Below, in pieces: positions 11,312-48,868 of a stretch of 53,311 bases of DNA (its first letter is position 1; every line of letters begins with the position of its first letter). Source of the stretch: Actinomycetota bacterium. GTDB lineage: Bacteria > Actinomycetota > Coriobacteriia > Anaerosomatales > UBA912. Under the pieces are notes generated by a model. The model saw only the letters and a list, made by a program, of their open reading frames with translations. It was not told the DNA's origin and ran no database searches. The translations under genes were made by a program, and so were the position numbers. The stretch is taken from the NCBI GenBank assembly GCA_023488435.1, contig JAMDCK010000029.1:1-53311 (forward strand). Reading direction: 5' to 3'.

Positions 11312-13042
11312 GTGATAAGCAGATGGAAAGCGATCCTCATAGTTGCAGTGTTCGCTTCTCTGGTCGGAGCCTCGGGTGCATTCGCCCAACAACCCACTGC
11401 GCCTTTTGACACTAATGCGGAGTGTTTGGTGTGTCACAGCTACACAGCAGCGATACCGATTCAGACCCCCCTCGACTTCACGGCACCGGCAGTTGACTAT
11501 AACCGATGCCTGACATGTCATTTCAATCTGCCGGACCAGGGGGTTTTTGCGGGTCGGCCAGTCCTAGGGCATCTACACAGCTCGTTGCAGAATTGCGCAG
11601 GCTGCCACGATGGTTACGAAGCCTTTGCCTTTACTTACCCTCGGCCAGCGGTTGACATGCTCACCCTGACGCAGTTCGGTTGGTTCCAAAGCGCGGCCTC
11701 CTTGAGTGCTACTCCCGGTCTCTTGCACGAAGTTCACATCAGCGAGGGTTGGGTCGAGACCACCTTTGGGCTGGAGGGCTCCTTGGCTCACACAGTGCGA
11801 CCCGAGAATACCTGCTCCCGCTGTCATGCGTCTGCCGCATGTTCGGCGTGTCATGTCAACGTGCCATTGTCGCACGAGAATCACGCTATACCGGCTTATC
11901 CTGCGGTCACCACCACTACCACGGATGGAATGGTAGTAGCTAGCAGGGCTTCCACTTGCATCAACCCGGCATGTCACTCCGTTGCTGTTGCTGCATCGAC
12001 CGCATTCGTCCCCGGCTGCACCGCGGTCTGCCATCCGGGCTTCGAACGTGACCACGCCCGCCCGGCCACGTGGAACTGGAGGAACGACTACTACGCATGG
12101 ACCATGGGCGGCCAAGATGGGAGAGGGACCATCCTCGCATCCATCGGTGCCAATCCTTACAACCCGGGCGTGCACGGTAATTACCTAGCCAATACCGCCA
12201 AGTGTGGCGTGTGTCACTCGGTGCACCGAGCCCGTGGTGACGGAGTCATGTTGCTGAACACAGGTGATCCGACCTGTGCAGGTTGCCATTTGATTGGCTC
12301 CACTGTGACCGACGTGGTTGTCAACTGGGGCGTTGGGCCCCATGGCGCTGGCGATCCTGCCTCGTGCCAGGCACGAGCATGTCACCTTGATAACCCACAT
12401 GGAGCGAACGGTTCGCAGTACGCGATCGTCTCTCAAAAGTTGCTCAATCCTGCAACCGATGCCCTGCTCGTCACCGCAGTGGCTGAGGCGGGGTCATCGG
12501 GCATCTCTACCACTGAACTCAACGCCCAACCTGGCTCTCTGTGGCCAGAGTCCACACGGTCGCTAGTCCGCACTGGCTACAACTGCAACATCTGCCACTC
12601 TTCGACACAGCTTGCAGTGGTCAACCGCGGGTGGGCCGAGCCCAGGCACGCCAACATAGATGCTACAGCACAGCCGTTGGTTCTAAAGCAAGGTCATATT
12701 GGAGTGGCCGGAGTCAGTGTTGATACATCGGAGACTTGGCGTCCTGGCGTGTGGCATGATGAGACCACCCAGACAGCATTCGCACCGGTCTCCGACTGCG
12801 AGAGCTGCCACGATCAGACCGATGATCGCACCCGAACAGGATTCACCTTCCCCCATGGCCAGACGCCAGTAGGGGCCAGCAACTTGGGAGCAGGCAGGGC
12901 GCTTCTATGGATGGGTTGGTCTGGTGGGGCTGGAGCCACACTCACTCCTATCACCACCGAAGATATGAAGGCCTACGACGGCAACTGCCTCAAATGCCAC
13001 CGTACCAGTGCGGGCGATGCCGGCGTGGGAGTCAGCTACTAG
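11312..13042 (+). CDS. Secreted 13-haem c-type cytochrome (modules A + B)
   Basis: The 576-residue product has a signal peptide ending near GAFA|QQP (about residue 25). I count ten CXXCH motifs (CLVCH, CLTCH, CAGCH, CSRCH, CSACH, CGVCH, CAGCH, CNICH, CESCH, CLKCH), one CX3CH (CTAVCH) and two CX4CH (CINPACH, CQARACH). Residues about 30-245 form a heptahaem module A that recurs at the start of the next gene's product. Residues about 250-576, from ATWNWRNDYY onward, form a hexahaem module B that is the same as the free-standing cytochrome at 30047. No membrane anchor, LPXTG or CWB2 repeat is seen, so it should be extracellular. It probably bridges the two other cytochromes. The GTG start has GGGGAG upstream. 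Confidence 0.9.
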   Translation: MISRWKAILIVAVFASLVGASGAFAQQPTAPFDTNAECLVCHSYTAAIPIQTPLDFTAPAVDYNRCLTCHFNLPDQGVFAGRPVLGHLHSSLQNCAGCHDGYEAFAFTYPRPAVDMLTLTQFGWFQSAASLSATPGLLHEVHISEGWVETTFGLEGSLAHTVRPENTCSRCHASAACSACHVNVPLSHENHAIPAYPAVTTTTTDGMVVASRASTCINPACHSVAVAASTAFVPGCTAVCHPGFERDHARPATWNWRNDYYAWTMGGQDGRGTILASIGANPYNPGVHGNYLANTAKCGVCHSVHRARGDGVMLLNTGDPTCAGCHLIGSTVTDVVVNWGVGPHGAGDPASCQARACHLDNPHGANGSQYAIVSQKLLNPATDALLVTAVAEAGSSGISTTELNAQPGSLWPESTRSLVRTGYNCNICHSSTQLAVVNRGWAEPRHANIDATAQPLVLKQGHIGVAGVSVDTSETWRPGVWHDETTQTAFAPVSDCESCHDQTDDRTRTGFTFPHGQTPVGASNLGAGRALLWMGWSGGAGATLTPITTEDMKAYDGNCLKCHRTSAGDAGVGVSY

Positions 13043-13107
13043 CTACCGCTCGTCGCTAGCATAATCAGACTTTTCATGCTCTTTATACCCACCACGGTAT
13101 TGTCAAC

Positions 13108-13125
13108 TTGTGATGGAAGTCACAT
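13108..13125. promoter_or_regulatory. Rex/CRP-like operator upstream of the giant cytochrome
   Basis: TTGTGA-TGGAAG-TCACAT contains a perfect TGTGA-N6-TCACA dyad at 13109-13124. It is centred about 100 bases before the chosen ATG at 13216, nearly the same distance as the 11194 site from its gene. The conserved flanks make coincidence unlikely. A possible -10 (TATGTA at 13135-13140) follows. Confidence 0.6.
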
Positions 13126-13215
13126 AATCCACAATATGTACACATTTGAGTAGTTCAGATGTCTGCGGAACGTTGAATTATGGGGCTAGCAAACGACACG
13201 AGGTGGGGAACTACC

Positions 13216-16200
13216 ATGTATGGTTATCAGCGATGTATGGTTTTGCTGGTGCTGGGGATTGTTTTGTTCGGGGGCGTCGGTGTAGCGAACGCACAACAAC
13301 CCCAAACGCCGTTCCAGCTACCTGAACCGCCGTTCGAAACCAACGCCGAGTGTATTGCTTGTCACGACATTGCGGCGCAGGCTCCGGTGTTCAGTCGGAC
13401 CGACTTCTCCGCGCCGAGGGTGGACTACGCTAGGTGCCGAACATGCCACTTCAATCTTCCCGATCAAGGCGTCTTCGGTAGTCAGCCAACTCTCGGACAC
13501 CTGCATAGCGAGCTGCGATTCTGCGCCGGCTGCCACGATGACTACGAAGCCTTTGCCTTTACTTACCCACGGCCCGCAGTCAACAATCTGACATTGACAC
13601 CGTTCGGGTGGTTTCAGAGCGCAGCCTCATTGAACGCAACCCCTGGCCTCCTTCATGAAGTACACATCAACGAGGGTTGGGTTGAGACGACTTTCGGCCT
13701 GGGTGGCACGTTGGCACACACGGTCCCTGCCGCCGACACGTGTTCCCGCTGTCATGCTTCTGCTGCATGTTCAGCGTGTCACGTGGGGGTCCCATTGTCT
13801 CATGAGGACCACGCCTTACCGGCCTATCCGGCAGTTACCACAACAACTACTGACGGGATGATCGTTGCCAGCAGGATCTCCACTTGTATAAACCCGGCAT
13901 GCCACTCCGTTGCGGTGGCCGCATCTGCAGAGTTCGTCCCCGGCTGCACAGCAGTCTGTCACCCTGGCTATGACGCATATCATGGGTACGACAGCATCGA
14001 TCATGTCGCCGATGACGGCTTGATCAACGGAATCAGCTGCTCTGCATGCCACTCACTGGATCTCGCGACCGAGCACGAAAGGCCGGACTCGAGTACCGTT
14101 GGACAGCAGTGCATCGCGTGCCACCCCGCACCTAGGGACACGTACACGGTCTGGAACCAGGGTTGCATCCAAGCCGGATGTCACGGACCCACTTCGGCGG
14201 ATCCCTTCCACTCTCAGATAACAACGGGTCATGCGATCTTGGCGAACAACCGGGTGTGTCTGGACTGTCATGCCGGTGATGATCTGGCCCAGGTGCATAC
14301 CCGGGCTGTCGATCCGATCGATCCCACAAGGACCTCGTGTCTTGTCTGCCATGAGCCGATTCCATCGCAGTTCGCAACGGCACACCCAGCTACACCACCT
14401 GTAAGGGACTGTACGGTTTGCCACTTCACCTTTGAGGAACATTACGATGAAGCTGCGCACCTCAGCACCTGGAGCATGGTTGGCTGTGGTGGTGCTGGGT
14501 GCCATACCACGCCCGATCTGATGCTGGCACACACCGAGATCGTTCCGACCTTCACCTGCATGGATTGTCATGCATCTCCGGATCCCATCGTAGTTGCGGC
14601 AATTGAGCAGAGACTGACAGCGTGTGATGCCTGTCATGTCGGCATCGAACAGGATGTTGCGCACAGGTCAGCCCACTGGGCCAACCCCCTTCTGATTGGC
14701 CCACAGGGTCCGAACTACGCATACTGGACCGGCTCGGTCTCTGGACCGTTCACACGCGATTGCGCCTTGTGTCATACAAGCAACCTAGTCGACGAGCACC
14801 AGGGCGTCAGTGAGATGGTTACCGGCACGGCCGTGATCACGAGGCCGACCCGCTACGATGCGCAGGGCAGAGCGCTCACTTGCGCAAGCTGCCATGTGTC
14901 AAGGGACGCAAAGACGGTGAGTGCCATCGCTACCCGGGATACCGCCTGCGATGCCTGCCATGTGGTCCATGGACCCGTAGGAGAGATCCACCAGTCGCGC
15001 TTCGCAGACGTTCAAGAGGTTTCTTGCATCGATTGCCATTCACCGGATTTGACCATAGAGCATGGTGGGGGAATGGTAGCCACAACCTCGGTGACGGGCC
15101 GCCAGCTTACTGGCTGCGATATCTGCCATTCGTACTTCGAGGGAGAGATGGGCCAGCGCTCTGAGCTGGCGATCGAAGCACGTGATACCCGCTGTACTGC
15201 GTGTCACGTAACCTATCACGATGATCTCAGTGTCCACTTGGCGACCAGTGCTGATTCTCTCCGATGTGGCGCTTGTCACGGTCAGGTCGTCGGAGGTGCG
15301 ATAGACGTCGCACCTGTTCATGCTGGAGCCCCGCTGGGCTGTAATGTCTGCCACCGCAACCCCTCCAGGATCCCGAACCTTTCGGCCAGAACAGCCGAGT
15401 GCGCAAGTTGCCATGCGACAACAGGGGTGGACTACCATCGCAATATGCAGGCCGACCACACCTTCGGTGAGATGGATCCCTCGTGTGCCACGGCGGGCTG
15501 TCATGGGACGAACACACTGCCGGAGGTCCACGAACCTTACATGGATAGCTATCCTCAGTACGCCGACACATGCGCACTGTGCCACCGCAACAGTGATCCA
15601 GCGCGCATCGATTGGAACACTGCCACCGCTGATTGCGCCACCTGCCATCAGGTCCACGGTGATATCGATCAGATTCATCAGGCACCCGATAGCCAGGAGT
15701 GCGTGGCGTGTCATGGGACGACTGATATCATCCAACTGCACCCCGCATGCTCTACCTGTCATAGGGTCGGCGTGGATACTACCGTCGGTGCACGGTGCGT
15801 AGCGTGCCATGACTACTCCCCAGCAGAGACGCGGCACCCAATACGTCCGGCTGCGCACGATGCGACCCTGCAGCGGGACTGCCTTGCTTGTCACGTGGTC
15901 GATCTGGTTGCAGAGCATCGCAGGCCAGGGGTAACACCCGTCGGCTGTGTTGCGTGTCACACGTACACCAGGTTCCCGGCCACCTGGGATCGTGGATGCA
16001 GTCAATGTCATCCTGTCGTGCATGACCGGATGGCTCAGGCACATGTTTCCACCGATGTAGCCTGTGGTGGGGCAGAGTGTCACGCTATACAAGATGTAGC
16101 CGTGATTCACGCGAACGCCGCCCCCGGTGGAGGTTGCTCCGTGTGTCATGTCAGTCCCAGCGTACCCGCGACCACCACTGCATGCGCTGCGTGTCACGGA

Positions 16201-17787
16201 CAGGTGGGTGCGGACCGCCACCGGGCTGTTCACGATGGTAGGCGTGCCAACGACATCGGCTGTGAGGGTTGTCACTTCCGCTTCGTCGACCAAGAGCATG
16301 AGGTTCTTGGGTTCAACTGCTCCACTTGCCACCGGTCCACTGACCCTGTGGTTCAAGGCGCTATCCAGGCGAACGATCTCAACTGCCTGACTTGCCATCC
16401 CAACTCGCCTCACAACCGCAGGCAGGCCATGGAGTTCGATCCACGGAATGCTTCGATGCACAGGGTAAGAGCGGACCTACCCGGAATGCGCGATCGCTTC
16501 GTCGTCAACGGAGTGACATACACATGGGCTATCCCACCCGCATCGTCGTTCCTCCTGCCCGGCTGGAGGATCGACTCGATCACGAGGTGTAGCGATTGCC
16601 ACACCTATACCGGTGCTGAGGGTCCCCATGGGGCAGCGATGAGGATCAACATAGATCCCAGGTTCCCCAACCCCTATCGTGTCATTACGGGCAACGAGAA
16701 CTTCACAGCTCAGCTCAGTGCCAACTCACCTACCGGCATGAGTATGACGAAGAACGGTTCGCGTCCAGCCGGGATAATCTGCGAGAAGTGTCATGACCTT
16801 CGCTCTCCGAGCGGTGTCTGGAGTACGAATGCCCACCAAGAGCATGACGATCGGGGTTACGAAGGTGCTTTCTGCAACCAGTGCCATGTGGCTATCCCGC
16901 ATGGCTGGGGTCGCCCCCGACTGTTGGGAACAGTATATGATCCACCAGCCTACAGGGTCTGGCCGGGCACTCCTGGACGCAACGACGCAGGTACCTCGCG
17001 TATCAGTATCAGGAGCTACACCCCGCAGGGCTGGCAGGAGCAGGATTGCGGTGCCGCTTGTGACGTCTCGGAGCACCCACTTCAGGGCACCTCCTGGCCC
17101 AACATCATGCCCGGTGGAATACCTGGTACTGGTGGAGTCACCGGACGTGTGACCGACGCTTCGACGACGGCTGCCGTCGCTGGTGCCACAGTGACACTGA
17201 ACACCGGAGTCTCTGCAACCACCGGAACCGATGGGCGCTACTCGCTAAGCGGCGTTGCGCCGGGTGCACGCACCATGACCATCACAAGATCCGGGTACAA
17301 CAATTGGTCCGGACCAGTCACTATAGCCTCTGATGCAACGGCCACGGTGAATGTAGCCCTTTCGCCTATGGCCGTTCCTCAGCCTGTCAACCTCGCACTG
17401 AACAGAACGTTCACTGCGTCCAGGTCGGACAGCAACCATCCTCCCGCCCGTGCGGGAGACGGCAATCTGCAGACCTTCTGGTGGTCGAACAGGACTGGAG
17501 GGGCCACGACAACAGAGCGTTTGTCGGTTGACCTAGGATCCTCACGTAGCATCAGGACAGTCGAAGTCGCCTGGAGCGGAAACCTATGGGCCAGATCCTT
17601 CAGGATTCAGACCTCGACCGATGGCACCAACTGGACCACGGTGTTCAGCACCACCACTGGAACGTCTGCGATGCAGCGGATTACGTTCAGTGCCCGGAAT
17701 GCACGGCACGTCAGGATTGAGTGTCAGGCAACCGGTACTGGTGCGGCCAATGGTTATGGGATCGCCGAGTTCAGGGTATTCCAGTAG
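13216..17787 (+). CDS. Giant secreted multiheme cytochrome (about 43 haem motifs) with C-terminal discoidin domain
   Basis: The 1523-residue product starts at an ATG preceded by GAGGTGGGG; an upstream in-frame ATG at 13180 has no ribosome site. A signal peptide ends near VANA|QQP (about residue 27). By eye there are 37 CXXCH, one CX3CH and five CX4CH motifs, spread over residues about 35-1270. The first seven repeat module A of the preceding protein. A carboxypeptidase-regulatory-like beta-sandwich (about 1305-1385, GRVTDASTTAAVAGATV, DGRYSLSGVAPG) and an F5/8 type C (discoidin) domain (about 1389-1523, from NLALNRTFTAS to GIAEFRVFQ) close the protein. Discoidin domains bind sugars, so the protein may sit on wall or capsule polysaccharide. 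The likely role is long-range extracellular electron conduction. It appears monocistronic, with its own operator and a hairpin after the stop. Confidence 0.9.
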   Translation: MYGYQRCMVLLVLGIVLFGGVGVANAQQPQTPFQLPEPPFETNAECIACHDIAAQAPVFSRTDFSAPRVDYARCRTCHFNLPDQGVFGSQPTLGHLHSELRFCAGCHDDYEAFAFTYPRPAVNNLTLTPFGWFQSAASLNATPGLLHEVHINEGWVETTFGLGGTLAHTVPAADTCSRCHASAACSACHVGVPLSHEDHALPAYPAVTTTTTDGMIVASRISTCINPACHSVAVAASAEFVPGCTAVCHPGYDAYHGYDSIDHVADDGLINGISCSACHSLDLATEHERPDSSTVGQQCIACHPAPRDTYTVWNQGCIQAGCHGPTSADPFHSQITTGHAILANNRVCLDCHAGDDLAQVHTRAVDPIDPTRTSCLVCHEPIPSQFATAHPATPPVRDCTVCHFTFEEHYDEAAHLSTWSMVGCGGAGCHTTPDLMLAHTEIVPTFTCMDCHASPDPIVVAAIEQRLTACDACHVGIEQDVAHRSAHWANPLLIGPQGPNYAYWTGSVSGPFTRDCALCHTSNLVDEHQGVSEMVTGTAVITRPTRYDAQGRALTCASCHVSRDAKTVSAIATRDTACDACHVVHGPVGEIHQSRFADVQEVSCIDCHSPDLTIEHGGGMVATTSVTGRQLTGCDICHSYFEGEMGQRSELAIEARDTRCTACHVTYHDDLSVHLATSADSLRCGACHGQVVGGAIDVAPVHAGAPLGCNVCHRNPSRIPNLSARTAECASCHATTGVDYHRNMQADHTFGEMDPSCATAGCHGTNTLPEVHEPYMDSYPQYADTCALCHRNSDPARIDWNTATADCATCHQVHGDIDQIHQAPDSQECVACHGTTDIIQLHPACSTCHRVGVDTTVGARCVACHDYSPAETRHPIRPAAHDATLQRDCLACHVVDLVAEHRRPGVTPVGCVACHTYTRFPATWDRGCSQCHPVVHDRMAQAHVSTDVACGGAECHAIQDVAVIHANAAPGGGCSVCHVSPSVPATTTACAACHGQVGADRHRAVHDGRRANDIGCEGCHFRFVDQEHEVLGFNCSTCHRSTDPVVQGAIQANDLNCLTCHPNSPHNRRQAMEFDPRNASMHRVRADLPGMRDRFVVNGVTYTWAIPPASSFLLPGWRIDSITRCSDCHTYTGAEGPHGAAMRINIDPRFPNPYRVITGNENFTAQLSANSPTGMSMTKNGSRPAGIICEKCHDLRSPSGVWSTNAHQEHDDRGYEGAFCNQCHVAIPHGWGRPRLLGTVYDPPAYRVWPGTPGRNDAGTSRISIRSYTPQGWQEQDCGAACDVSEHPLQGTSWPNIMPGGIPGTGGVTGRVTDASTTAAVAGATVTLNTGVSATTGTDGRYSLSGVAPGARTMTITRSGYNNWSGPVTIASDATATVNVALSPMAVPQPVNLALNRTFTASRSDSNHPPARAGDGNLQTFWWSNRTGGATTTERLSVDLGSSRSIRTVEVAWSGNLWARSFRIQTSTDGTNWTTVFSTTTGTSAMQRITFSARNARHVRIECQATGTGAANGYGIAEFRVFQ

Positions 17788-26348: not shown

Positions 26349-26367
26349 CACAGGAGGAACCAGACCG

Positions 26368-27633
26368 ATGCCCCGCCCCATGACCATCACCGAGAAGATT
26401 CTAGCTGCGCACGCCGGCCTCGACGAAGTCGAACCCGGACAGCTCATCACATGCAAGCTCGATATCGTGCTTGCCAACGACGTGACCGCGCCGATCGCGA
26501 TCCGTGAGTTCCGTCGCACGGGTGCAACTAAGGTGTGGGACAAGGACCGTGTCGTCCTCGTGCCCGACCACTACGCACCCAACAAGGACATCAAATCCGC
26601 CGAGCAGGCCAAAGTCATGCGCGATTTCGCTCGCGAGCAGTCGATATCCCACTACTACGAGATCGGTTGCATGGGCGTCGAGCACGCGTTGTTGCCAGAG
26701 CAGGGAGTGGTCGTTCCTGGCGATGTCATCATCGGAGCGGACTCCCACACCTGCACCTACGGTGCGCTCGGGGCGTTTTCCACCGGCGTCGGCAGCACTG
26801 ATGCGGCGGCCGGAATGGCCATAGGCGAGGCGTGGTTCAAAGTGCCCGCATCGATCAAGTTCGTCGTAGATGGCGAGTTCGGGCCCTGGGTATGCGGAAA
26901 AGACCTTATCCTGCACATCATTGGGCTGATCGGTGTCGACGGTGCGCTCTACCAGGCCATGGAGTTCACCGGTTCGACCTTCGATGCGATGGGCATGGAC
27001 GACCGAATGACCGTCTGCAACATGGCGATCGAAGCCGGTGCCAAATCCGGAATCATCGCGGTCGATGACGTCACGCGCACCTACCTCACGGGTCGCGCCG
27101 AGCGCCCCTGGGTCGAGTACCACTCGGATCCCGACGCCCACTACCCGCGCGTCATCGAGATAGACGCAGCGGCCCTCAAGCCGACGGTGTCCTTCCCGCA
27201 CCTGCCATCGAACACGCGCCTCGCCGAGGACTCTCGCGACGTCACAATCGATCAGGTCGTGATCGGGTCTTGCACAAACGGCCGCCTGGAAGACCTCCGT
27301 ATAGCCGCCGAGGTCCTCAAGGGCCGCAAGGTCGACGACCGCGTGAGGCTGATCATCATCCCAGCCACCCAGGAGATATATCGCGCTGCCATGACCGAAG
27401 GACTTTTCGATATCTTCCTGGACGCCAATGCTGCGATCTCGACCCCGACATGCGGGCCTTGCCTTGGCGGTCACATGGGTATCCTTGCCGCGGGAGAGCG
27501 CGCAGTCGCGACCACGAATCGCAACTTCGTGGGCAGGATGGGCGACCCCACCAGCGAGGTGTATCTGAGCTCACCCGCTGTGGCCGCAGCCAGTGCCGTG
27601 GCTGGGCATATCGCGCTACCAGATGATCTGTAG
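26368..27633 (+). CDS. leuC: 3-isopropylmalate dehydratase large subunit (operon copy)
   Basis: The 421-residue protein has all cluster cysteines ([24 protein letters not shown]) and the [11 protein letters not shown] motif. The ATG follows AGGAGG by a good spacing and lies 19 bases after leuA. It is clearly related to, but distinct from, the LeuC at 7395. The expected partner leuD is not next; the matching small subunit is 20.7 kb away at 48365. Confidence 0.93.
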
Positions 27634-27758
27634 CCGAGCCGCCTTTCAGGCACTCGATTTGCTAGCGAATGGAAATAAAATCATGTCCTCACGCTCATGT
27701 GAGAAGATTCACGCTTCTGGTATGTCCACTCTGGGGCGTGTGATGTAAACTGGCACGC

Positions 27759-27780
27759 ACTGTCCGCACACTGGGACAGT
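27759..27780 (+). promoter_or_regulatory. Hairpin/dyad in the leader of the TPR gene
   Basis: ACTGTCC (27759-27765) and GGACAGT (27774-27780) form a 7-bp dyad 54 bases before the ATG. A possible -10 (TAAACT, 27746-27751) lies in a larger GCGTG/CACGC dyad. The rest of the 200-base spacer after leuC also holds CTCAC-GCTCAT-GTGAG near 27690. No clear terminator with a T-run was seen. Confidence 0.35.
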
Positions 27781-27833
27781 CCATAAGAACCTGACCCAGC
27801 AATCTGCCGCTTAGTCGACGACGGAGGAAATAG

Positions 27834-28637
27834 ATGCAGCAAGATCGCCCAGACGATCGCGAAGGTTTCCAGTTCGATGAAACCACAAAGCCCGCTCCTC
27901 GCAAGCAGGTTCGGCGTAAGAGCTCGATCTTCGACGATCCCGTGGTTCGCAAGATGTCATTCGCCGCAGTCGGTATTCTGATCCTATTCCTTGTAACAGT
28001 CGTGAGCGCCCTTGTTACAGGAGTTATACAGCCCGGTGGGCCGCGGACAGCCCTAGAGCGTGACATATCGGTGACGGGCGCTGCGGTACGTGCCGGCACA
28101 ACGGATACGAGCGTGTGGGCTCGTCATATCTCGGCTCTCATACTCGACGGCCAATTGGGTCGGGCCGAGAACATCCTGAGCACTGCCAAAGCTAGCTTGG
28201 ATGATTCTTCGACAGCTGACATCGTTCTGAGTGAGGCGCGCCTGTTGAGGGCACAAGGACAGTATGAGGAGGCCCTTGAAGTCGCCGATGCCGCCCGGAC
28301 CCAGATTCGCGAGCATCACGAGGCGCAGCTTGCTGAGGGCGGAGTCATCGCCAACGCGGCGCGTCTAGCCGGATACCACGATAACTATCACATCGCCCTC
28401 ATCGTCAAGGCCGACATCTATCGCGATATGGAGGACTGGGACAGAGTGCTGGAGCAGTACAACGCCTTCATTGAATCCAACCCTGGAGCCGCCGACATCC
28501 TGACTGATCGCGGGAACGTCAAGTTCGAAATGGGCGACAGGACCGGTGCAGAAGCTGATTACCGCGAAGCGCTTAGATTCTACCCTGACTACGAAGAGGC
28601 CCTTGCGGGGCTAGAGAGGATCGGATCGTCTCAATGA
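27834..28637 (+). CDS. Membrane-anchored TPR protein
   Basis: The 267-residue product has a basic cytoplasmic N-terminus and one membrane helix (about 42-64, FAAVGILILFLVTVVSALV). An extracellular region of TPR repeats follows (ADIVLSEARLLRAQGQYEEALEVADAA; HIALIVKADIYRDMEDWDRVLEQYNAFIESNPG; ADILTDRGNVKFEMGDRTGAEADYREALRFYPDYEEALAGL). The ATG has GGAGGAA upstream. It overlaps the next gene by 4 bases. TPR scaffolds of this kind help assemble surface or cytochrome complexes; that role here is inferred from the neighbours. Confidence 0.8.
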   Translation: MQQDRPDDREGFQFDETTKPAPRKQVRRKSSIFDDPVVRKMSFAAVGILILFLVTVVSALVTGVIQPGGPRTALERDISVTGAAVRAGTTDTSVWARHISALILDGQLGRAENILSTAKASLDDSSTADIVLSEARLLRAQGQYEEALEVADAARTQIREHHEAQLAEGGVIANAARLAGYHDNYHIALIVKADIYRDMEDWDRVLEQYNAFIESNPGAADILTDRGNVKFEMGDRTGAEADYREALRFYPDYEEALAGLERIGSSQ

Positions 28638-29890
28638 CCGATACAGTTGCAGAAAACCCCCCAGCTGCTCAAAGCCCGGAAGTGGTCTCTAGGCGCGGAC
28701 GAAGGATTCTGGGATTGGTTCTCGCCGCCCTGCTCCTTCTCCTTGGTCTTGCTACATTCCTTCTGCTCCGCTTGCTGGATCCCCCTGGCGATATTCCTGC
28801 TACCGAGGAATTGCTCGGCATCGAGTGGGTACGCTCGATCTACGGGATGAGTGTAGCGCCGGAGGACCAGTTCCAGCGTACCGCTGCAGCTGCTCCGGGC
28901 CCAGATGGGTCTATACATATCACTGATGCACAGCATGGTGCGATCATGAGGTTCACTCCTGATGGTCGCTATATTGAGACCTTTCGTGGCCCTGAGGCTG
29001 ATCCGCTGGTCGTACCGGGTCGCCTTACTGTCGGACCGGATGGCTTGATTTATGTCGTGGAAACCCAGAACGACCGGGTCCGCGTCTTGAATCCAGACGG
29101 ATCTTATATTGGTACGTTCAGCGTTCCCAGACCAGTCTCGATCGCGGTGAGTGAAGACAAGATCGTTGTAGGCTCGGTCAACGGGTTTGCGATATTGGAC
29201 CCCACCGACGGCAGTCCAGTCCGTGTGATAGGATCCCGCGGCCAAGCTGATTATCAGTTCGATTACGTACACGGGGTGGCCATCGGTGAGGATGGCCGGA
29301 TATTCGTTGCGGATTCGTTCAACAACAGGATCAGCGCATATGATGCTGAGGGCAATCGCCTGTGGATTGTAAGAACCGGAAAGCCGTCTAACCGCGCAGA
29401 GATGATCGATGGACGTCTCACGGTGCGAGAGCTCGAGGACCAAGCGCTCACGGGTGAAGAAGCCCTGCAGTTGCCCCTAGGAATGACTCTCGATGGTGCT
29501 GGAAGAATCGTAGTCGCAGACATGTTCGAGTGTGCGCTGGCGGTTTTCGATCCGGAAGACGGATCCCTGATAGGGAAGTACGGCACGCCAGGGCCAGAGG
29601 ACGGGAAGTTCTTCTATCCGACGAATGTCAGTTATGACCCTCAGCGCGACTGGTTCACCGTCTCGGATACGCAGAACAACAGGGTCCAAATCGTGAGACT
29701 TCCGGACTCTGCCGGTGGCGGTGATGCTGCAGCTGCGGCGAGACGGGTGCTCGATGGACCGATACGAGCATGTGCGATCCCGCTGGCTCTGGTGATTATT
29801 GCTGTCGGAGTCGCTCTGTTCTTGCGCAGGAAGAGAAATCAGGCTACAAGCACGACACCGAGTCCAGAAATTCTCGACCGTTCCACATAA
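28634..29890 (+). CDS. NHL-repeat beta-propeller protein with two membrane helices
   Basis: The 418-residue product has membrane helices near both ends (about 26-47 and 378-399). Between them lies an NHL-type six-bladed propeller with repeated NDRVRVLNPDG, NNRISAYDAEG and NNRVQIV motifs. The loop carrying the propeller should lie outside the membrane, with both ends in the cytoplasm. It overlaps the TPR gene by 4 bases. NHL proteins are found near extracellular cytochrome genes in several electron-transferring bacteria (from memory), so a role in cytochrome export, folding or docking is plausible but unproven. Confidence 0.8.
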   Translation: MTDTVAENPPAAQSPEVVSRRGRRILGLVLAALLLLLGLATFLLLRLLDPPGDIPATEELLGIEWVRSIYGMSVAPEDQFQRTAAAAPGPDGSIHITDAQHGAIMRFTPDGRYIETFRGPEADPLVVPGRLTVGPDGLIYVVETQNDRVRVLNPDGSYIGTFSVPRPVSIAVSEDKIVVGSVNGFAILDPTDGSPVRVIGSRGQADYQFDYVHGVAIGEDGRIFVADSFNNRISAYDAEGNRLWIVRTGKPSNRAEMIDGRLTVRELEDQALTGEEALQLPLGMTLDGAGRIVVADMFECALAVFDPEDGSLIGKYGTPGPEDGKFFYPTNVSYDPQRDWFTVSDTQNNRVQIVRLPDSAGGGDAAAAARRVLDGPIRACAIPLALVIIAVGVALFLRRKRNQATSTTPSPEILDRST

Positions 29891-29937
29891 ATCATGGACA
29901 TTTATGTGTGCGTTTTGTGATAGACTCCGTATGTACA

Positions 29938-29954
29938 GTTTCGTTAATCGAAAC
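29938..29954. promoter_or_regulatory. Small perfect dyad in the hexahaem leader
   Basis: GTTTCG-TTAAT-CGAAAC is a perfect 6-bp dyad upstream of the structured leader. It lies just after TATGTA and a single TTGTGA half-site (29914-29919). It could be an operator or a short hairpin. Confidence 0.35.
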
Positions 29955-29969
29955 CGCACGTAGATTGCG

Positions 29970-30018
29970 TGTGAACTGTTCAAGCTTGATGCAGTCGATG
30001 ACTGCAGAGCGGTTCACA
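29970..30018 (+). promoter_or_regulatory. Structured 5' leader RNA before the hexahaem cytochrome
   Basis: A 9-bp outer stem TGTGAACTG (29970-29978) with CGGTTCACA (30010-30018) encloses a perfect palindrome TCAAGCTTGA (29980-29989) and a 7-bp hairpin TGCAGTC-GAT-GACTGCA (29990-30006). A competing hairpin AGCGG/CCGCT (about 30008-30025) would break the outer stem. The ribosome site AAAGGAGGTG follows at 30031-30040. I do not recognise a known riboswitch class; GEMM (c-di-GMP) landmarks are absent. Confidence 0.55.
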
Positions 30019-30046
30019 AATCCGCTTGGGAAAGGAGGTGCAGTAC

Positions 30047-31195
30047 ATGAAACAAGCAACGACCCATATGTCTCTTACTAAAGGAGATTATTCGGTGAAA
30101 AGAAGAAGTGTTCTTGTTATTGCGATCGCGGTCGCTCTCGTCTTTTTGTTCGCAGCCTCCGCATACGCATCGTTCCTAGCCCCGACACGGGCCAGGACCT
30201 GGAACTGGATGGCGGATTACTACACTTGGGGATCACCCATCGGATCAGGAGTTGCTGGTGGAACCCTGTTGAGTGCCACTGGCGCCAACCCCACGAACCC
30301 CGGCGTTCATGCCAACTACCTGGCCAACACAGCCAAGTGCGGCATCTGCCACTCGGTTCACCGTGCAGCTGGTGACGGCGTCATGCTGCTGGGGACAAAC
30401 AACCCTACATGCGCAGGGTGTCACGTTATCGGCTCGACAGTGACCGATTTGGTGGTCAACTGGGGTGGAGGCCCTCACAGCGGTGGTAACCCACTGGCTT
30501 GTCAGGCTCGCGCCTGCCATCTGAACAACCCGCATGGTGCTAACGGCTCGCAGTACGCCATCGTCGCTGCAGCGTTGCTCAACCCGGCCACCGACGCACT
30601 GCTCGTGACCCCGACAGCCAACCCTGTTGCATCCGGGATCTCGGTTGCAGAGCTAGATGCCGTTGCAGGCTCGGTTTGGCCGGACAGCACGCGTTCGCTG
30701 GTCCGCACAGGCTACAACTGCAACATCTGCCACTCATCCACGACGCTGGCAGTGGTCAATCGCGGTTGGGCTGATTTGCGCCACGCCAACATCAACGCGA
30801 CCCAGGCACCTTTGGTGCCCAAGCAGGGTCACATCGGTGTCGCTGGAGTGACAGTCGATGCAGCCGAGCAGTGGGTGTCGAATGGCGTTACCACGACCAT
30901 CGTCGAAACCACTCAGACAGCGTTCGCTGGCGTTAGTGACTGCGAGAGCTGCCACGATCAGACCGATCCGCAGACCAGCTCAGGGTTCACGTTCCCCCAT
31001 GGTCAGACCACAGCCGCTGGTGCTGGGTCCAACATGCCTGATGGCACCAGAGCTTTCCTCTGGATGGGTTGGTCCGGTGGCGCTGGTACTACGCTTACGC
31101 CTATCACCACCAACGATATGAAGGCGTATGACGGTAACTGCTTGAAGTGCCATCGCAACAACGCTGGCACCGCAGGTGTTGGACTCACCTACTAG
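30047..31195 (+). CDS. Secreted hexahaem c-type cytochrome (module B alone)
   Basis: The 382-residue product has a signal peptide (KRRSVLVIAIAVALVFLFAASAYA, cleavage near residue 41). It has six haem motifs: CGICH, CAGCH, CQARACH (a CX4CH), CNICH, CESCH and CLKCH. The mature part aligns along its whole length with module B of the 13-haem protein at 11312. There is no membrane anchor or wall-binding domain. Two in-frame starts each have a strong ribosome site: ATG 30047 after AAAGGAGGTG, and GTG 30095 after AAGGAG. The second gives a more usual signal peptide. The strong site, structured leader and downstream hairpin suggest high expression. Size and haem number resemble hexahaem nanowire cytochromes such as OmcS; filament formation is only a hypothesis. 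Confidence 0.9.
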   Translation: MKQATTHMSLTKGDYSVKRRSVLVIAIAVALVFLFAASAYASFLAPTRARTWNWMADYYTWGSPIGSGVAGGTLLSATGANPTNPGVHANYLANTAKCGICHSVHRAAGDGVMLLGTNNPTCAGCHVIGSTVTDLVVNWGGGPHSGGNPLACQARACHLNNPHGANGSQYAIVAAALLNPATDALLVTPTANPVASGISVAELDAVAGSVWPDSTRSLVRTGYNCNICHSSTTLAVVNRGWADLRHANINATQAPLVPKQGHIGVAGVTVDAAEQWVSNGVTTTIVETTQTAFAGVSDCESCHDQTDPQTSSGFTFPHGQTTAAGAGSNMPDGTRAFLWMGWSGGAGTTLTPITTNDMKAYDGNCLKCHRNNAGTAGVGLTY

Positions 31196-31254
31196 GATTA
31201 TCCTAGCTGGTAAATGATCTGTTTCATCAGAACTGCTGTTGAACAGACGGTTGA

Positions 31255-31283
31255 GGGGTCGGCCCCGATATGGGGTCGGCCCC
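31255..31283 (+). terminator. GC-rich hairpin between hexahaem and membrane cytochrome genes
   Basis: Two direct copies of GGGGTCGGCCCC (31255-31266 and 31272-31283), separated by GATAT, can pair in RNA as a 12-bp stem with two G-U pairs. There is no T-run. It could act as a partial terminator or 3' stabiliser, making the upstream cytochrome more abundant than the downstream ones. Confidence 0.5.
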
Positions 31284-31329
31284 GATTCATGCACATCGTT
31301 ACTTGCTCATACTCCGGGTGTCCGCAGCA

Positions 31330-32295
31330 ATGTCCTTAGCGATTTGGGGTAATGCCTTGCGCCTGATCCGAAAATCACTACTCTGGCTCATCGTCGCAGT
31401 GCCGCTTGCCCTACTCATCCCGATAAGCGGCTATTTCTATATGGGGTTTGCGCCCTGTGCATCGTGTCACCAGGAGGAGTCTTTCTTCGATGCAACCCAG
31501 ATGAGTGCTCATGCCGCCATCCGGTGCGTTGACTGTCATGCCTCAGGTGGGGTTGTAGGAAGAGTGGACTTCGGATTTCGCCACCTGGCCAACGTCCTGC
31601 CTATTGGTGCGGATGGGTCGAGGGATCTGGCCGCCGTCGACGACCGGAGTTGTCTGCAGTGTCATCAGACCGTGATGAATCGCGCGATCGATACCGGTGC
31701 CATCAATATCAACCACGCATATTGCTCGGCGACTACCCCATGTACCGACTGTCACTCCACCGTCGCGCATGGGAAGGAGATTTCCTGGGTCCGCACGTAT
31801 GACATGGAGACGTGTCTCTCCTGTCACGTGGAGGCAGGCTCCGTAGATTGTGCTCTGTGTCATGTAGGCCGGTTGCCCAAGGATCGAATCACCACCGGCA
31901 CCTTTGCTATCACCCATGGTCCCCAGTGGGAACAGACCCACGGTATGGGAGACTCCTCGACCTGCGCTGCCTGTCACACCGCTGCTGCTTGTCAAACATG
32001 TCATGGCGCAGGGGTACCGCACGAGCCGGATTTCGTAAGGGTCCATTCTGAGTACGCTGTGGACCCCGAACAACTCTGTGTCGACTGTCATGATCAAAGA
32101 TTCTGCGACGACTGCCACGGCCTGGCTATGCCTCATCCGAATAGATTTGTACGGGCGCACGCACAATACGCCGAAGAGGATGAGGAGCTCTGCCGTCGTT
32201 GTCATTTGGAGCCCGACTGCACTGTATGTCATGAGACTCACATCCATCCCGGTGGCGCCCTTGATACCTTGCCACAAGGCGGTGAGACCCGCTAA
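31330..32295 (+). CDS. Membrane-anchored 12-haem cytochrome (one N-terminal helix)
   Basis: The 321-residue product starts with a single membrane helix (about 16-36, LLWLIVAVPLALLIPISGYFYMG) directly followed by FAPCASCH. I count twelve CXXCH motifs (CASCH, CVDCH, CLQCH, CTDCH, CLSCH, CALCH, CAACH, CQTCH, CVDCH, CDDCH, CRRCH, CTVCH). The anchor followed by a haem domain is like NapC/NirT quinol-oxidising cytochromes, but with many more haems. A longer frame reaches 31270, inside the hairpin, so I take the ATG at 31330; no strong ribosome site is seen. It overlaps the next gene by one base (TAATG), so the two are translationally coupled. It probably moves electrons from the membrane quinone pool outward. 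Confidence 0.85.
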   Translation: MSLAIWGNALRLIRKSLLWLIVAVPLALLIPISGYFYMGFAPCASCHQEESFFDATQMSAHAAIRCVDCHASGGVVGRVDFGFRHLANVLPIGADGSRDLAAVDDRSCLQCHQTVMNRAIDTGAININHAYCSATTPCTDCHSTVAHGKEISWVRTYDMETCLSCHVEAGSVDCALCHVGRLPKDRITTGTFAITHGPQWEQTHGMGDSSTCAACHTAAACQTCHGAGVPHEPDFVRVHSEYAVDPEQLCVDCHDQRFCDDCHGLAMPHPNRFVRAHAQYAEEDEELCRRCHLEPDCTVCHETHIHPGGALDTLPQGGETR

Positions 32296-33506
32296 TGGAA
32301 GAGATTTTGACATCACTCTCTGGTTTGTGGACTCGGCTCCTGACCCTTCTGCTTGATCCTGCCACGGATATTGGTGCGGCCCTGGCACTCTACGCGATTC
32401 TGGGCACTCTGTTAGCGATAATTCTGGTCATCGCCATCATGTTCGTTGTTGGATCCCCCGAAGATGAGGCGATCGATTCCGAGCATATGGGCATAGACCA
32501 CCCCCCGCTCGAGAAGCTATCAGAACCACCTGACTCGGATGTGCCTCCTCCGCTTCCTCCCCGTACACCCAAGGAGCGGTTGGCTGCTCTGGGCATCACT
32601 GTTGCCGTCGCATCTCTTGTCTGGGTGATTGCCGGGTACTCGACAAGCACGACATGGGTTTGCGCCTCTTGCCATACCGAGACCGTCCACACTGTCTCGG
32701 ATACTGCGGCTGATCCACACTCTGGAGTTTCGTGTGTGGCCTGTCACGAACCGGGCGGATTGCTCGCAAGGGTTTCGATAGGCTTGCCCGACAGGAGTAT
32801 GCACTTTCTGTCCCAACTTGCCGGAATCCCCGAACAGTACCCATATGGACGGCCCACTCAGGCCGCGTGTTTGAATTGTCATTCCCCAGACGTCGCTGGT
32901 GTTGCTCTTGACGACTATCGAGGGATACGGGTCTCGCACCAAGAGCCGCTTGAGGCAGGAGCTACATGTTTGGACTGCCATCGTCTAGCGGATGGAAGTG
33001 TGGCCGCTCATAACGCGGGCATGAGTCCATGTTTGCGCTGTCATAACGCGACGATAGCCAGCGCTGCTTGTGATACTTGCCATGTGGGCGATCCCGCAGC
33101 CGCAAGCGCTCCTAGCACCGCCAACGCTACTGTTCAGATTGAGAACCTCTCCTGCGGTGGCTGTCACGATGAAGAGCGTTCCTGCGATCCATGTCATGGT
33201 GGCTTCAGGCTTCCGCACTCTCGTGAGTTCATCATGGTGTCCCATGCAAGGGTGGCATTCGTAGACTTCGTTGAGAACGACGGGCGGCGTTGTGCGCAGT
33301 GCCATACCGAGACTCGGAACCCCTGCTCGCAGTGTCACACTCCTATGCTAGGCTCCGCTCATGGCCCCGGTTTGATGCAGGACCACCAAGGGGCAACCGC
33401 GGCTGGCTGCGATACTTGTCATCAGCAGTGGGCGTTCAGTCAGGAGCGCGATTTTTGTGCCGATGTCTGCCATACTGACGCCGCCATCAGGTATAGCCCC
33501 CGCTAG
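32295..33506 (+). CDS. Membrane-anchored 12-haem cytochrome (two helices)
   Basis: The 403-residue product has two membrane helices (about 26-52 and 99-118). A Pro-rich cytoplasmic loop (about 55-95, PPPLPPRTPKER) joins them, and the haem domain after the second helix begins TTWVCASCH. Twelve haem motifs are seen: eleven CXXCH (CASCH, CVACH, CLNCH, CLDCH, CLRCH, CDTCH, CGGCH, CDPCH, CAQCH, CSQCH, CDTCH) and a final CADVCH (CX3CH). It is coupled to the preceding gene and probably forms a membrane complex with it. The last third of the gene belongs to the first copy of a 638-bp duplication. Confidence 0.87.
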   Translation: MEEILTSLSGLWTRLLTLLLDPATDIGAALALYAILGTLLAIILVIAIMFVVGSPEDEAIDSEHMGIDHPPLEKLSEPPDSDVPPPLPPRTPKERLAALGITVAVASLVWVIAGYSTSTTWVCASCHTETVHTVSDTAADPHSGVSCVACHEPGGLLARVSIGLPDRSMHFLSQLAGIPEQYPYGRPTQAACLNCHSPDVAGVALDDYRGIRVSHQEPLEAGATCLDCHRLADGSVAAHNAGMSPCLRCHNATIASAACDTCHVGDPAAASAPSTANATVQIENLSCGGCHDEERSCDPCHGGFRLPHSREFIMVSHARVAFVDFVENDGRRCAQCHTETRNPCSQCHTPMLGSAHGPGLMQDHQGATAAGCDTCHQQWAFSQERDFCADVCHTDAAIRYSPR

Positions 33507-33515
33507 GCGGCGCAG

Positions 33516-33820
33516 ATGCCCGATCACACCACGACAGTCCCTGGATACCAGAAGTATGTGCTGCCGGCTCTCTTGCTAGGTGTGCTTCTGTCGCCCGGTG
33601 CCTGGTTGATTGTCAATCTCCCCCCGGTTCCTGTATCTCAAGCCTTCCATCTTGCGACAGCTGGAGCAGCTTTGCTTGCGTCGGCAACAGGGACCCTCAT
33701 GCTTGCCAGCCTCGATCGTCGGCTGCTGGCTGGCCTCGCGGGCATCTTGGGTGTTGTGGTGACATCCTGGGTAGCTGCGGGAGATATGTTCGCAGCCGTT
33801 TTTTATGATCTGTATGCGAG
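33516..33820 (+). pseudogene. 5' fragment of the polymerase/ligase gene (duplication by-product)
   Basis: It carries the ATG and the first ~101 codons of the gene at 34154, identical to it. After the joint the frame reads into copied cytochrome DNA in the wrong frame and stops at 33902. It would give at best a few membrane helices. Confidence 0.85.
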
Positions 33821-34144
33821 TGCGATCCATGTCATGGTGGCTTCAGGCTTCCGCACTCTCGTGAGTTCATCATGGTGTCCCATGCAAGGGTGGCATTCGT
33901 AGACTTCGTTGAGAACGACGGGCGGCGTTGTGCGCAGTGCCATACCGAGACTCGGAACCCCTGCTCGCAGTGTCACACTCCTATGCTAGGCTCCGCTCAT
34001 GGCCCCGGTTTGATGCAGGACCACCAAGGGGCAACCGCGGCTGGCTGCGATACTTGTCATCAGCAGTGGGCGTTCAGTCAGGAGCGCGATTTTTGTGCCG
34101 ATGTCTGCCATACTGACGCCGCCATCAGGTATAGCCCCCGCTAG
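33821..34144 (+). pseudogene. 3' fragment of the 12-haem cytochrome gene (duplication by-product)
   Basis: It repeats the last 107 codons with five haem motifs (CDPCH, CAQCH, CSQCH, CDTCH, CADVCH) and the stop. It has no signal or membrane helix, so it could not be matured as a cytochrome. Confidence 0.85.
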
Positions 34145-34153
34145 GCGGCGCAG

Positions 34154-36001
34154 ATGCCCGATCACACCACGACAGTCCCTGGATACCAGAAGTATGTGCT
34201 GCCGGCTCTCTTGCTAGGTGTGCTTCTGTCGCCCGGTGCCTGGTTGATTGTCAATCTCCCCCCGGTTCCTGTATCTCAAGCCTTCCATCTTGCGACAGCT
34301 GGAGCAGCTTTGCTTGCGTCGGCAACAGGGACCCTCATGCTTGCCAGCCTCGATCGTCGGCTGCTGGCTGGCCTCGCGGGCATCTTGGGTGTTGTGGTGA
34401 CATCCTGGGTAGCTGCGGGAGATATGTTCGCAGCCGTTTTTTATGATCTGTATGCGAGCATGCCCCTTGTGCAGTGGATGGCCTTTCCCTTGGTGTTCAT
34501 TCTGGCTGCAAAAGTCGCCTTCACGCGTAGGAGCATCGAAGACGCCCTTGTCGTGGTCGTAGGTTTCGGCGTGGTGCTGTCACTCGTGCTCGTCTTTCAG
34601 CAGGTCACCACTGCAACGATACGGGTGTTCGGCTCTACTGGGTACAGTACCGCTGCGCTGATGCCGCTGGTCCCGATTGCCGCGATCATCGCTGCATCGC
34701 GCAAGGACTGGAGTAGACCCGCGTTGTACGCAGCAGCAGTGACCATCTGCCTCGCCCTAGGTGTATTCTCTGGCTCGGTGATGGCGTCTCTGGCAGCGGT
34801 TTTCGCAGTAGCCGTGACGGTCGCGGTCCACCCTGCACTCGGATCGTTCAAGGGTATGCTGGCTCGCATCGTGAAATCCGCCGCGTTGTTTGTGGGCGCA
34901 GCGATGTTCTTGGGGCTAATGGTGATTCAGGTGCCCGCTGTTTCTTCGGCGGTTGTGGATATGGAGTCGATCGTTGGGACTGATGGCAATATGCTGTCGC
35001 GCGTGCAGATGTGGGGTGGGGCCCAGGGCATGCTTGAGGACCGCCCGCTGTTGGGTTTCGGGCCGTCGGGATACAGGATGTACGCGGCCGAGTACCTACC
35101 CCCTGAGATGTTCCAGCACACTCCCGATCGGGTAGGTAGCATCGACCCTGAGGTCTACAGTCCGCAATCCCCGCATTCTTGGCTATGGGAGATTGCGACT
35201 CGACTGGGGCTAGTCGGCGTACTGGCGTTCGCCTTCATGCTGGGATGTTGGGCCTGGACACTACGGGATAGGGTGGCGGCTACAAACGACGAGGCCCACT
35301 TGCGCCTGGCTTTGGCCGGAGGTTTTGCCATCGCCATGTTCGCGCTGCTAGTTAACCCCGTGATCTTTGCGATCGGGTTGTTCGCTCCGCTCATGGCCGG
35401 GCTGGCGGTGGCACCGTGGACTTCCGTGGATGTGGGTCGCTCGGCGGGTTGGTTCCGGCCTCTCGCTGCTGCCGGCGGGGTTGCAATCATCGTCGTGGCC
35501 CTTTGGCTCGGTGTCGGCGGATTCCGGCTGTTCTCGGTCTCGTCAGACGATGCGAATCTAGCCGCGCACCAGCTTGAGCGAGTGCGCGGGATCATGCCGG
35601 GACATCCGGTGGTCGAGCGCAGGTCTTTGGAGGTCGCCCTTCTGCTGGCTCCCGACGAGGCTCAGGTGAGGGCTGTGCAGGATCGAGTGGATCGGGCGCC
35701 TCGGCACATACATGAGTTCGCACCCAATCTAGTCAGCCTTGCCACCTACTCCTTGGCCCAAGCGAGTCGAACCGGACGCACTGATCTGGTGTGGGAGCAG
35801 AAGATGCTGGATACAGCAGCCGAAAGGCTTCCTCCGACACCAGCGCTTGTGGCAGAGCAACTGCACCTAGCGGTGCTGTCCGGTGATCCCGAGCGGGTCT
35901 GGGCTGCGCTTCCGGAGGCGCAGCGTTGGGGGAGCTACTATCCGTTCATCGGCGATTATCTTGCGCGCGCCGAGGCGGTAGTCGGTCAGCCGCTGCGCTA
36001 G
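34154..36001 (+). CDS. O-antigen ligase/polymerase (Wzy-like) membrane protein
   Basis: The 615-residue product has about ten or more membrane helices over residues 15-455. Between helices lies the large outer loop typical of the Wzy_C/O-antigen ligase family, with LGFGPSGYRMYAAEY and SPQSPHSWLWEIATRLGLVG (about 300-355). A C-terminal extramembrane region (about 465-615) is helical and may be TPR-like. Such proteins polymerise or transfer undecaprenyl-linked glycans outside the membrane. It starts 9 bases after the copied cytochrome stop; in the unduplicated arrangement it lies 9 bases after the real one. The EPS genes may therefore be cotranscribed with the cytochromes. Confidence 0.82.
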   Translation: MPDHTTTVPGYQKYVLPALLLGVLLSPGAWLIVNLPPVPVSQAFHLATAGAALLASATGTLMLASLDRRLLAGLAGILGVVVTSWVAAGDMFAAVFYDLYASMPLVQWMAFPLVFILAAKVAFTRRSIEDALVVVVGFGVVLSLVLVFQQVTTATIRVFGSTGYSTAALMPLVPIAAIIAASRKDWSRPALYAAAVTICLALGVFSGSVMASLAAVFAVAVTVAVHPALGSFKGMLARIVKSAALFVGAAMFLGLMVIQVPAVSSAVVDMESIVGTDGNMLSRVQMWGGAQGMLEDRPLLGFGPSGYRMYAAEYLPPEMFQHTPDRVGSIDPEVYSPQSPHSWLWEIATRLGLVGVLAFAFMLGCWAWTLRDRVAATNDEAHLRLALAGGFAIAMFALLVNPVIFAIGLFAPLMAGLAVAPWTSVDVGRSAGWFRPLAAAGGVAIIVVALWLGVGGFRLFSVSSDDANLAAHQLERVRGIMPGHPVVERRSLEVALLLAPDEAQVRAVQDRVDRAPRHIHEFAPNLVSLATYSLAQASRTGRTDLVWEQKMLDTAAERLPPTPALVAEQLHLAVLSGDPERVWAALPEAQRWGSYYPFIGDYLARAEAVVGQPLR

Positions 36002-48364: not shown

Positions 48365-48868
48365 ATGAAATTCCAAGGCGCAGCCCACAAATACGGCCGA
48401 GACATCGACACCGACGTGATCATTCCGGCACGTTACCTGAACACCAGCATCCCCGAGGAGCTGGCCAAGCACTGCATGGAGGATCTCGATCCCGAGTTCG
48501 TCAACAAGGTGCAACCGGGTGACATCCTCGTCGCCGAGGAGAACTTCGGCTGTGGCTCCAGCAGGGAGCATGCGCCGATCTCAATCAAGGCCGCCGGAGT
48601 CAGCGTCGTGATCGCCAAGTCGTACGCCCGCATCTTCTATCGCAACGCCATCAACACCGGCCTTCCCATCATGGAATCTGCCGAGGCGGTCGCAGGCATC
48701 TCCACCGGCGACAGGGTCGAGGTAGATGCCGATACTGGACTGATCATGAACCTCACCACAGGTGCGACCTATCAGGCACAGCCGTTCCCGCCGTTCATCA
48801 AGGAAATCATCGAGAAGGGCGGCTTGATCGAGATGGTGAAGGACAAGCTCGCAGCCCAGTCCTCGTAG
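48365..48868 (+). CDS. leuD: 3-isopropylmalate dehydratase small subunit (classical type)
   Basis: The 167-residue subunit has GRDIDTDVIIPARYLNTS (the classical isopropylmalate loop YLNTS at about 24-28), GCGSSREHAPI and ARIFYRNAINTGLP. ATG with AGAGGAG upstream. It is the expected partner of the LeuC at 26368, yet 20.7 kb of cytochrome and polysaccharide genes lie between them. The minus-strand gene that follows ends 2 bases after its stop. Confidence 0.93.
   Translation: MKFQGAAHKYGRDIDTDVIIPARYLNTSIPEELAKHCMEDLDPEFVNKVQPGDILVAEENFGCGSSREHAPISIKAAGVSVVIAKSYARIFYRNAINTGLPIMESAEAVAGISTGDRVEVDADTGLIMNLTTGATYQAQPFPPFIKEIIEKGGLIEMVKDKLAAQSS

Follow-up and report, generated by a model that had tools for sequence, protein, structure and literature searches.

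Five genes of a multihaem cytochrome cassette

The window analysed here is the whole of contig JAMDCK010000029.1 (53,311 nucleotides) of an Actinomycetota bacterium of the order Anaerosomatales, class Coriobacteriia (assembly GCA_023488435.1; 1.70 Mb in 62 contigs, 96% complete). Its forward strand carries a block of five genes, referred to below as TPR, NHL, HEX, 12A and 12B, which encode a TPR protein, an NHL propeller, a secreted hexahaem cytochrome and two membrane-anchored 12-haem cytochromes. Open reading frames, domains, haem motifs and hydropathy bear out the gene descriptions and the order given in a first-pass annotation made from the sequence alone. The TPR and NHL reading frames overlap by four bases, gaps of 156 and 74 bases separate NHL from HEX and HEX from 12A, and the frames of 12A and 12B have base 32295 in common, which confirms the one-base overlap noted in that annotation; these two genes are translationally coupled. 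A promoter scan returned no promoter-like sites against 3.0 expected by chance, and 12 terminator-like sites were found versus 3.8 in shuffled sequence, part of them intragenic.

The cassette directly follows leuA-leuC (24750-33506 for the two together with the cassette), and leuD lies approximately 15 kb downstream (48365-48868). leuC also adjoins TPR in six other loci (L066, L072, L079, L080, L092, and L103), and the cassette seems to have entered the leucine gene cluster early.

The TPR protein (267 aa, 27834..28637) was identified from its match to TPR_2 (E 4.5e-11; 42.4 bits, over the Pfam cut-off of 27), its family alignment and its hydropathy, which indicates a single N-terminal membrane helix (residues 43-61); the repeats are predicted to lie outside the membrane. 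The NHL protein (418 aa, 28634..29890) is likewise over the Pfam cut-off (E 2.1e-13; 50 bits against 20) and has hydropathy-derived membrane helices at both ends (residues 25-43 and 379-397). Its family profile matches NHL propellers at 9.1e-49, indicating that it is a true NHL propeller. Overall, the soluble domains of all five proteins are predicted to be outside the single membrane.

HEX (30047..31195), defined from the open reading frame list, haem motif counts and family alignments, starts at the ATG at 30047 rather than at the TTG at 30026, and has an N-terminal hydrophobic, signal-like segment. It has five CXXCH motifs and one CX4CH, and since the column of the latter reads CXXCH in other family members we consider it a genuine sixth haem site. 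Six motifs are present in 24 of the 25 cassettes with strict gene order described below and five in the remaining one, and six extra histidines, invariant or nearly so, are candidate distal ligands for all six haems. The best matches of the HEX profile among solved structures were 6i5b (OcwA, 1.5e-12) and MtrA (4.4e-11), and the pentahaem MtrC/MtrF II/IV domain matches 24 of 39 HEX members. A multihaem structure of 16 chains, 9yuq_N, was also among the matches listed (1.1e-6), along with a weak match (0.012) to 7tfs_A, which we take to be OmcE. No OmcS entry was among the best 60 of 68 matches at E<=10, and we rejected the assignment of HEX to the OmcS family on these listed matches.

12A (31270..32295) and its paralog 12B (32295..33506) have one and two helices, respectively, by hydropathy. 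There are 12 CXXCH motifs in 12A, and 11 plus one CX3CH in 12B, the latter aligning with a plain CXXCH of relatives and therefore, like the sixth motif of HEX, representing a genuine haem site. The 12A count is 12 in all 25 strict cassettes, window included, while that of 12B is 12 in 15 and 11 in eight, the other two copies reaching the end of the sequence stretch. This conservation of haem motifs is far beyond chance. The 12A alignment (25 rows) shows no variation in the 12 haem motifs, in ten further histidines or in one methionine, and one more histidine is almost constant. Such a ligand pattern would suit a wire of low-spin haems, although the CHXM of NrfH is missing from both window proteins, as discussed below.

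The best solved match of both profiles was Desulfovibrio NrfH (2j7a; 3.1e-12 for 12A and 2.5e-12 for 12B), spanning the helix, which precedes the tetrahaem domain, and the first four haems. Among the next matches was 6r2q_A (8.9e-9 and 7.2e-9); the accessible part of PMC12203936 identifies this chain as MtrA and 6i5b as OcwA. At the level of families, the NrfH model TIGR03153 matches 22 of 25 12A members and DmsE 18 of 25, in both cases below cut-off. Judged by these profiles, 12A and 12B carry an NrfH-like N-terminus of the quinol dehydrogenase type, followed by a putative MtrA/DmsE-like array.

Conservation of the cassette in Actinomycetota

Our searches of genomes were confined to the phylum Actinomycetota. 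Among 119 genomes of the class, 61 had a match to 12A and 30 a match to HEX at E<=1e-10. Synteny was examined with family profiles of the five proteins in 40 stretches from 38 of the 61 12A-carrying genomes, picked for strong 12A or HEX matches, and the rates given here are those of that sample. These 40 loci contain 41 12A-12B pairs, 32 of which have at least 3.6 kb of sequence upstream. Directly upstream and on the same strand of 23 of the 41 pairs are TPR, NHL and HEX, and locus L077 has one further cassette in which 12B is cut by the contig end. The strict order TPR-NHL-HEX-12A-12B is therefore found in 24 cassettes belonging to other members of the class, or 25 with the window. Three loci (L080, L081, and L083) have more than one set each.

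The exceptions are of several kinds. The 12A-12B pair of L090 and that of L091 lie on the strand opposite to TPR-NHL-HEX and face these genes, HEX is missing between NHL and 12A in L093 and in both of the L099 pairs, L100 and L101 have HEX elsewhere, and L089 has none of TPR, NHL and HEX. Over the 25 cassettes, the distances between homologous proteins are correlated among the five genes (Spearman 0.60-0.85), and none of 500 permutations attained the observed value for any of the four gene pairs tested. Because shared ancestry alone gives such co-variation, this result speaks for inheritance together and not for interaction.

Across a sample of the phylum, 46 of 396 genomes (our own and the class members included) had a 12A match at E<=1e-25. 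Outside the class, 20 stretches together with L115 and L117 contain 22 pairs, with L115 and L139 being one record. About four distinct pairs have NHL-HEX directly upstream, and the others are arranged more loosely or on opposite strands, some without part of the set. Loci of the Candidatus Aquicultor type keep the order TPR, NHL, HEX, 12A, 12B, with a seven-motif HEX and wider gaps. A scan of contigs returned only actinobacterial loci or those of unnamed or candidate groups: related loci were in Coriobacteriia and other actinobacterial metagenome-assembled genomes, UBA912, whose 12A is 77% identical, Candidatus Aquicultor and Candidatus Geothermocultor.

The five genes are a conserved unit. 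The first-pass annotation had made its reading depend on the genes being kept together in relatives, as they are in the 24 other cassettes of the class, and the possibility that no relative has them in synteny has fallen away. That the block is a chance neighborhood of five unrelated genes is contradicted by the conserved order in many genomes; we rejected this explanation, whose probability we regard as negligible.

Proposed electron route, likely donor and alternative readings

Starting from the observed gene order, conservation, domains, haem sites and hydropathy topology, we consider it probable that the cassette is a porin-free, wall-crossing conduit for extracellular electron transfer (EET) in a monoderm cell, together with its assembly scaffold. 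The electron donor, the direction of flow, the position of HEX, the role of the scaffold and the acceptor are what we infer from these observations. The two membrane-anchored, jointly produced proteins 12A and 12B would receive electrons at the face of the membrane in their NrfH/CymA-like four-haem heads, in the window organism presumably from menaquinol, and pass them outward through the fused MtrA/DmsE-like eight-haem array. One polypeptide might thus do the work of Shewanella CymA plus MtrA, with no need of a porin. Secreted HEX could then carry the electrons into the wall or through it and hand them to larger surface cytochromes, of which the two at 11312-17787 are examples, with Fe(III) or another outside acceptor at the end, while TPR and the double-anchored NHL protein may hold or assemble the cytochromes on the outer membrane face.

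The annotation had described the block as a complete route without a porin. The absence of a porin is supported by there being no match to PF11854 (MtrB/PioB) in the window's own genome, a modest test given that the control matched weakly, in 1 of 14; a porin-type conduit was rejected on this result. The claim of completeness fared less well: the unit is conserved, but there are larger surface-type cytochromes at 11312-17787 on the same contig.

That quinol is the donor in the window organism is likely, although for the family as a whole this is unproven. The genome encodes, side by side on contig C56, an MqnC over cut-off, an MqnC-like paralog and MqnA (PF02621), as well as a UbiA prenyltransferase and ResB for cytochrome c maturation. 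UbiA-family genes are present in most genomes and do not settle the quinone question. In the class sample, MqnC was over cut-off in 31 of 61 12A carriers as opposed to 1 of 58 non-carriers. The quinone route of the first-pass annotation is therefore upheld in part: the futalosine-pathway genes and the NrfH-like heads agree with it, whereas the missing haem-1 motif and the carriers without MqnC and MenB, both described next, do not.

Several observations weigh against the conduit as we propose it, the first group of which concerns the donor. The motif CXXCHXM at haem 1 has a characteristic role in the quinol dehydrogenases NrfH, NapC and CymA. While haem 1 of 2j7a reads CTSCHIM, the window has CASCHQE in 12A and CASCHTE in 12B, and the methionine was found in just 9 of 42 12A and 3 of 41 12B copies. 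The window 12A and 12B score 31.1 and 23.7 bits against an NrfH cut-off of 134.2 (TIGR03153). Neither MqnC nor MenB was over cut-off in 30 of the 61 12A carriers, the association between MqnC and 12A is confounded by phylogeny, and, according to the accessible text of PMC9686372, quinones were not detected in either of two cultured isolates of the order. Other points bear on the conduit as a whole. Within the same order, Fe(III) is not used by an isolate that has 18 multihaem cytochromes (PMC9686372, accessible text). Finally, the AlphaFold models of HEX have a mean pLDDT (predicted local distance difference test score) of 47.6 for the window protein (25 rows) and 46.9 for a compact homolog (39 rows); they are too poor for use, and the reading of HEX as a nanowire is therefore neither supported nor excluded by them.

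The donor evidence also bears on a rival explanation, that 12A and 12B are fed directly by a membrane hydrogenase, a formate dehydrogenase or a cytochrome b partner in a quinone-independent EET. The 30 carriers without MqnC and MenB over cut-off, including the 99% complete G016, the unconserved haem-1 motif and the undetected quinones of the two isolates (PMC9686372, accessible text) all point this way. We still think it unlikely given that the window genome has futalosine-pathway genes, MqnC strongly tracks 12A, and absence of a hidden Markov model match is not absence of quinone, as there may be unknown pathways or uptake. Carriers without MqnC or MenB over cut-off include genomes of 97-100% completeness (G016, G047, G055, G077, G093, and others), for which a quinone-free extracellular respiration is possible. 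A doubtful, more ambitious version of the conduit would be a quinone-optional, porin-free EET machine of deep-branching Actinomycetota, in which CymA-MtrA fusion pairs accept electrons from several membrane enzymes, the hexahaem cytochrome is stacked as a wall-crossing wire, a propeller/TPR hub acts as builder, and whole cassettes have been duplicated for different acceptors.

Two further explanations keep the parts and change their use. The conduit could run inward, or both ways, for electron uptake from Fe(II), a cathode or direct interspecies transfer, as nothing in the sequence fixes the direction, MtrA-type arrays work both ways, and MtoA-type homologs appear in the accessible Dethiobacter literature (PMC10376724). 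We rate this as quite unlikely, based on a cultured relative that respires Fe(III) with H2 or formate (PMC9686372, accessible text) and on our having seen no evidence of Fe(II) oxidation in the group. The other explanation is that, on the outside of the membrane, soluble compounds of sulfur or nitrogen are reduced rather than a solid acceptor, with HEX as the catalytic partner, like NrfA for NrfH. NrfH-like heads usually partner a periplasmic enzyme, and HEX matches OcwA, whose fold resembles cytochromes of the nitrogen and sulfur cycles. However, a conserved candidate distal histidine at all six HEX haems leaves no obvious open catalytic haem, and the HEX module is also found as part of larger surface-type cytochromes; we therefore find this explanation very unlikely.

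Known systems, genomic surroundings and significance

Published systems are compared here on the accessible parts of the papers cited. The Thermincola chain ImdcA-PdcA-CwcA-OcwA is also from a monoderm and comprises a membrane multihaem protein proposed to oxidize quinol, the hexahaem cytochrome CwcA in the wall, and a reductase at the surface (PMC7911101). The best solved match of HEX being OcwA adds to this likeness, and HEX has the traits of CwcA, here known by description: six haem motifs, six conserved extra histidines and a signal-like N-terminus. In contrast, ImdcA has 10 haems where the window has paired 12-haem proteins, CwcA was modeled on OmcS, which is not among the HEX matches listed, and that text makes no mention of NHL or TPR partners for the chain (PMC7911101). 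The NrfH/NapC/CymA proteins (Desulfovibrio NrfH, 2j7a) share an N-terminal anchor and four haems with 12A and 12B. The latter have eight more haems, and the block shows no gene of the NrfA type. MtrA of the MtrCAB complex (6r2q) is matched by the 12A, 12B and HEX profiles, and the MtrC/MtrF II/IV domain by HEX members, but no counterpart of the porin MtrB of MtrCAB was found in the window genome, and here the haem array is fused to a membrane anchor.

Closer in gene content are the EET clusters of Dethiobacter alkaliphilus, in which CymA-like and MtrA-like multihaem cytochromes lie beside NHL and TPR genes proposed to act in assembly, secretion or orientation (PMC10376724). These clusters, which we liken to ours by description, vary between strains, and that text describes no fixed order of five genes. 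In Desulfovibrio ferrophilus and Geoalkalibacter, NHL proteins are found beside extracellular multihaem cytochromes, but these organisms are diderm and have no TPR plus 12-haem pair in the accounts available (PMC9769857, PMC12016550).

Among Anaerosomatales themselves, both isolates have two putative quinol-oxidizing multihaem proteins and an MtrA homolog at three consecutive loci (PMC9686372), which are probably HEX-12A-12B of the cassette. Both isolates, probably Anaerosoma tenue and Parvivirga hydrogeniphila, have Gram-positive walls, and among the cultured relatives is an obligate Fe(III) reducer with such a wall (PMC9686372). The terms "NHL" and "TPR" are absent from the main text of that paper, and no cassette is named. 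The open-access literature searched, which leaves out most subscription papers, yielded no account of the five genes in this fixed order. The parts are of known kinds, while their fixed combination of five seems not to have been described as a unit. The first-pass annotation did not recognize the exact set as a described system; partial clusters are in print for Dethiobacter (PMC10376724), as is, probably, the three-cytochrome part for Anaerosoma and Parvivirga (PMC9686372).

Upstream of the cassette, on the same strand, are two larger secreted cytochromes. The one at 11312..13042, identified by its motif count and its identity to HEX, has up to 13 haems and shares 72% identity with HEX in its C-terminal module (11987-13039), from which we conclude that the HEX module has been shuffled between stand-alone and larger cytochromes. 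The other (13180..17787) is a giant of 1535 aa with 37 CXXCH and up to six longer motifs, as well as MtrC/MtrF-like, carboxypeptidase-regulatory-like and F5/8 type C domains; it is a candidate for the terminal surface partner. Counted with a loose pattern, a relative of the giant cytochrome in L091 (10371-15239) has about 52 motifs.

An exact 638-base tandem duplication (33183-33820 and 33821-34458) lies at the junction of 12B and a ligase gene. It covers the 3' end of 12B, leaves intact genes for 12B and the ligase, and adds a fragment of 90 aa (33872-34144) and a truncated ligase copy (33516-33902). It is one of three exact or near-exact direct duplications of the contig (21357-22108, 33183-34458, and 40250-41347), of which the first two are perfect tandems with unit equal to offset (376 and 638 bases). 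The close relative L111 has no such repeat. The duplications are likely an assembly artifact in which overlapping contigs were joined without trimming, rather than real duplications. Elsewhere in the genome, a second relative of the NHL family (C14:5911-7005) has two in-frame TGA codons, marking a pseudogene or having some other cause; it is near the ResB gene (C14:3189-3986).

What is known of how electrons pass the thick wall of monoderms is an outline drawn mainly from a few Firmicutes, and the cassette is kept in many deep-branching anaerobic actinobacteria. As a fixed, repeatedly duplicated five-gene unit of a widespread subsurface lineage, it may serve as a marker for EET ability in metagenomes. 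For NHL and TPR proteins, the function next to cytochromes has only been guessed in print; the cassette ties them to a specific set of cytochromes. It also offers a defined gene set for heterologous expression, and a means of testing whether EET can do without quinones.

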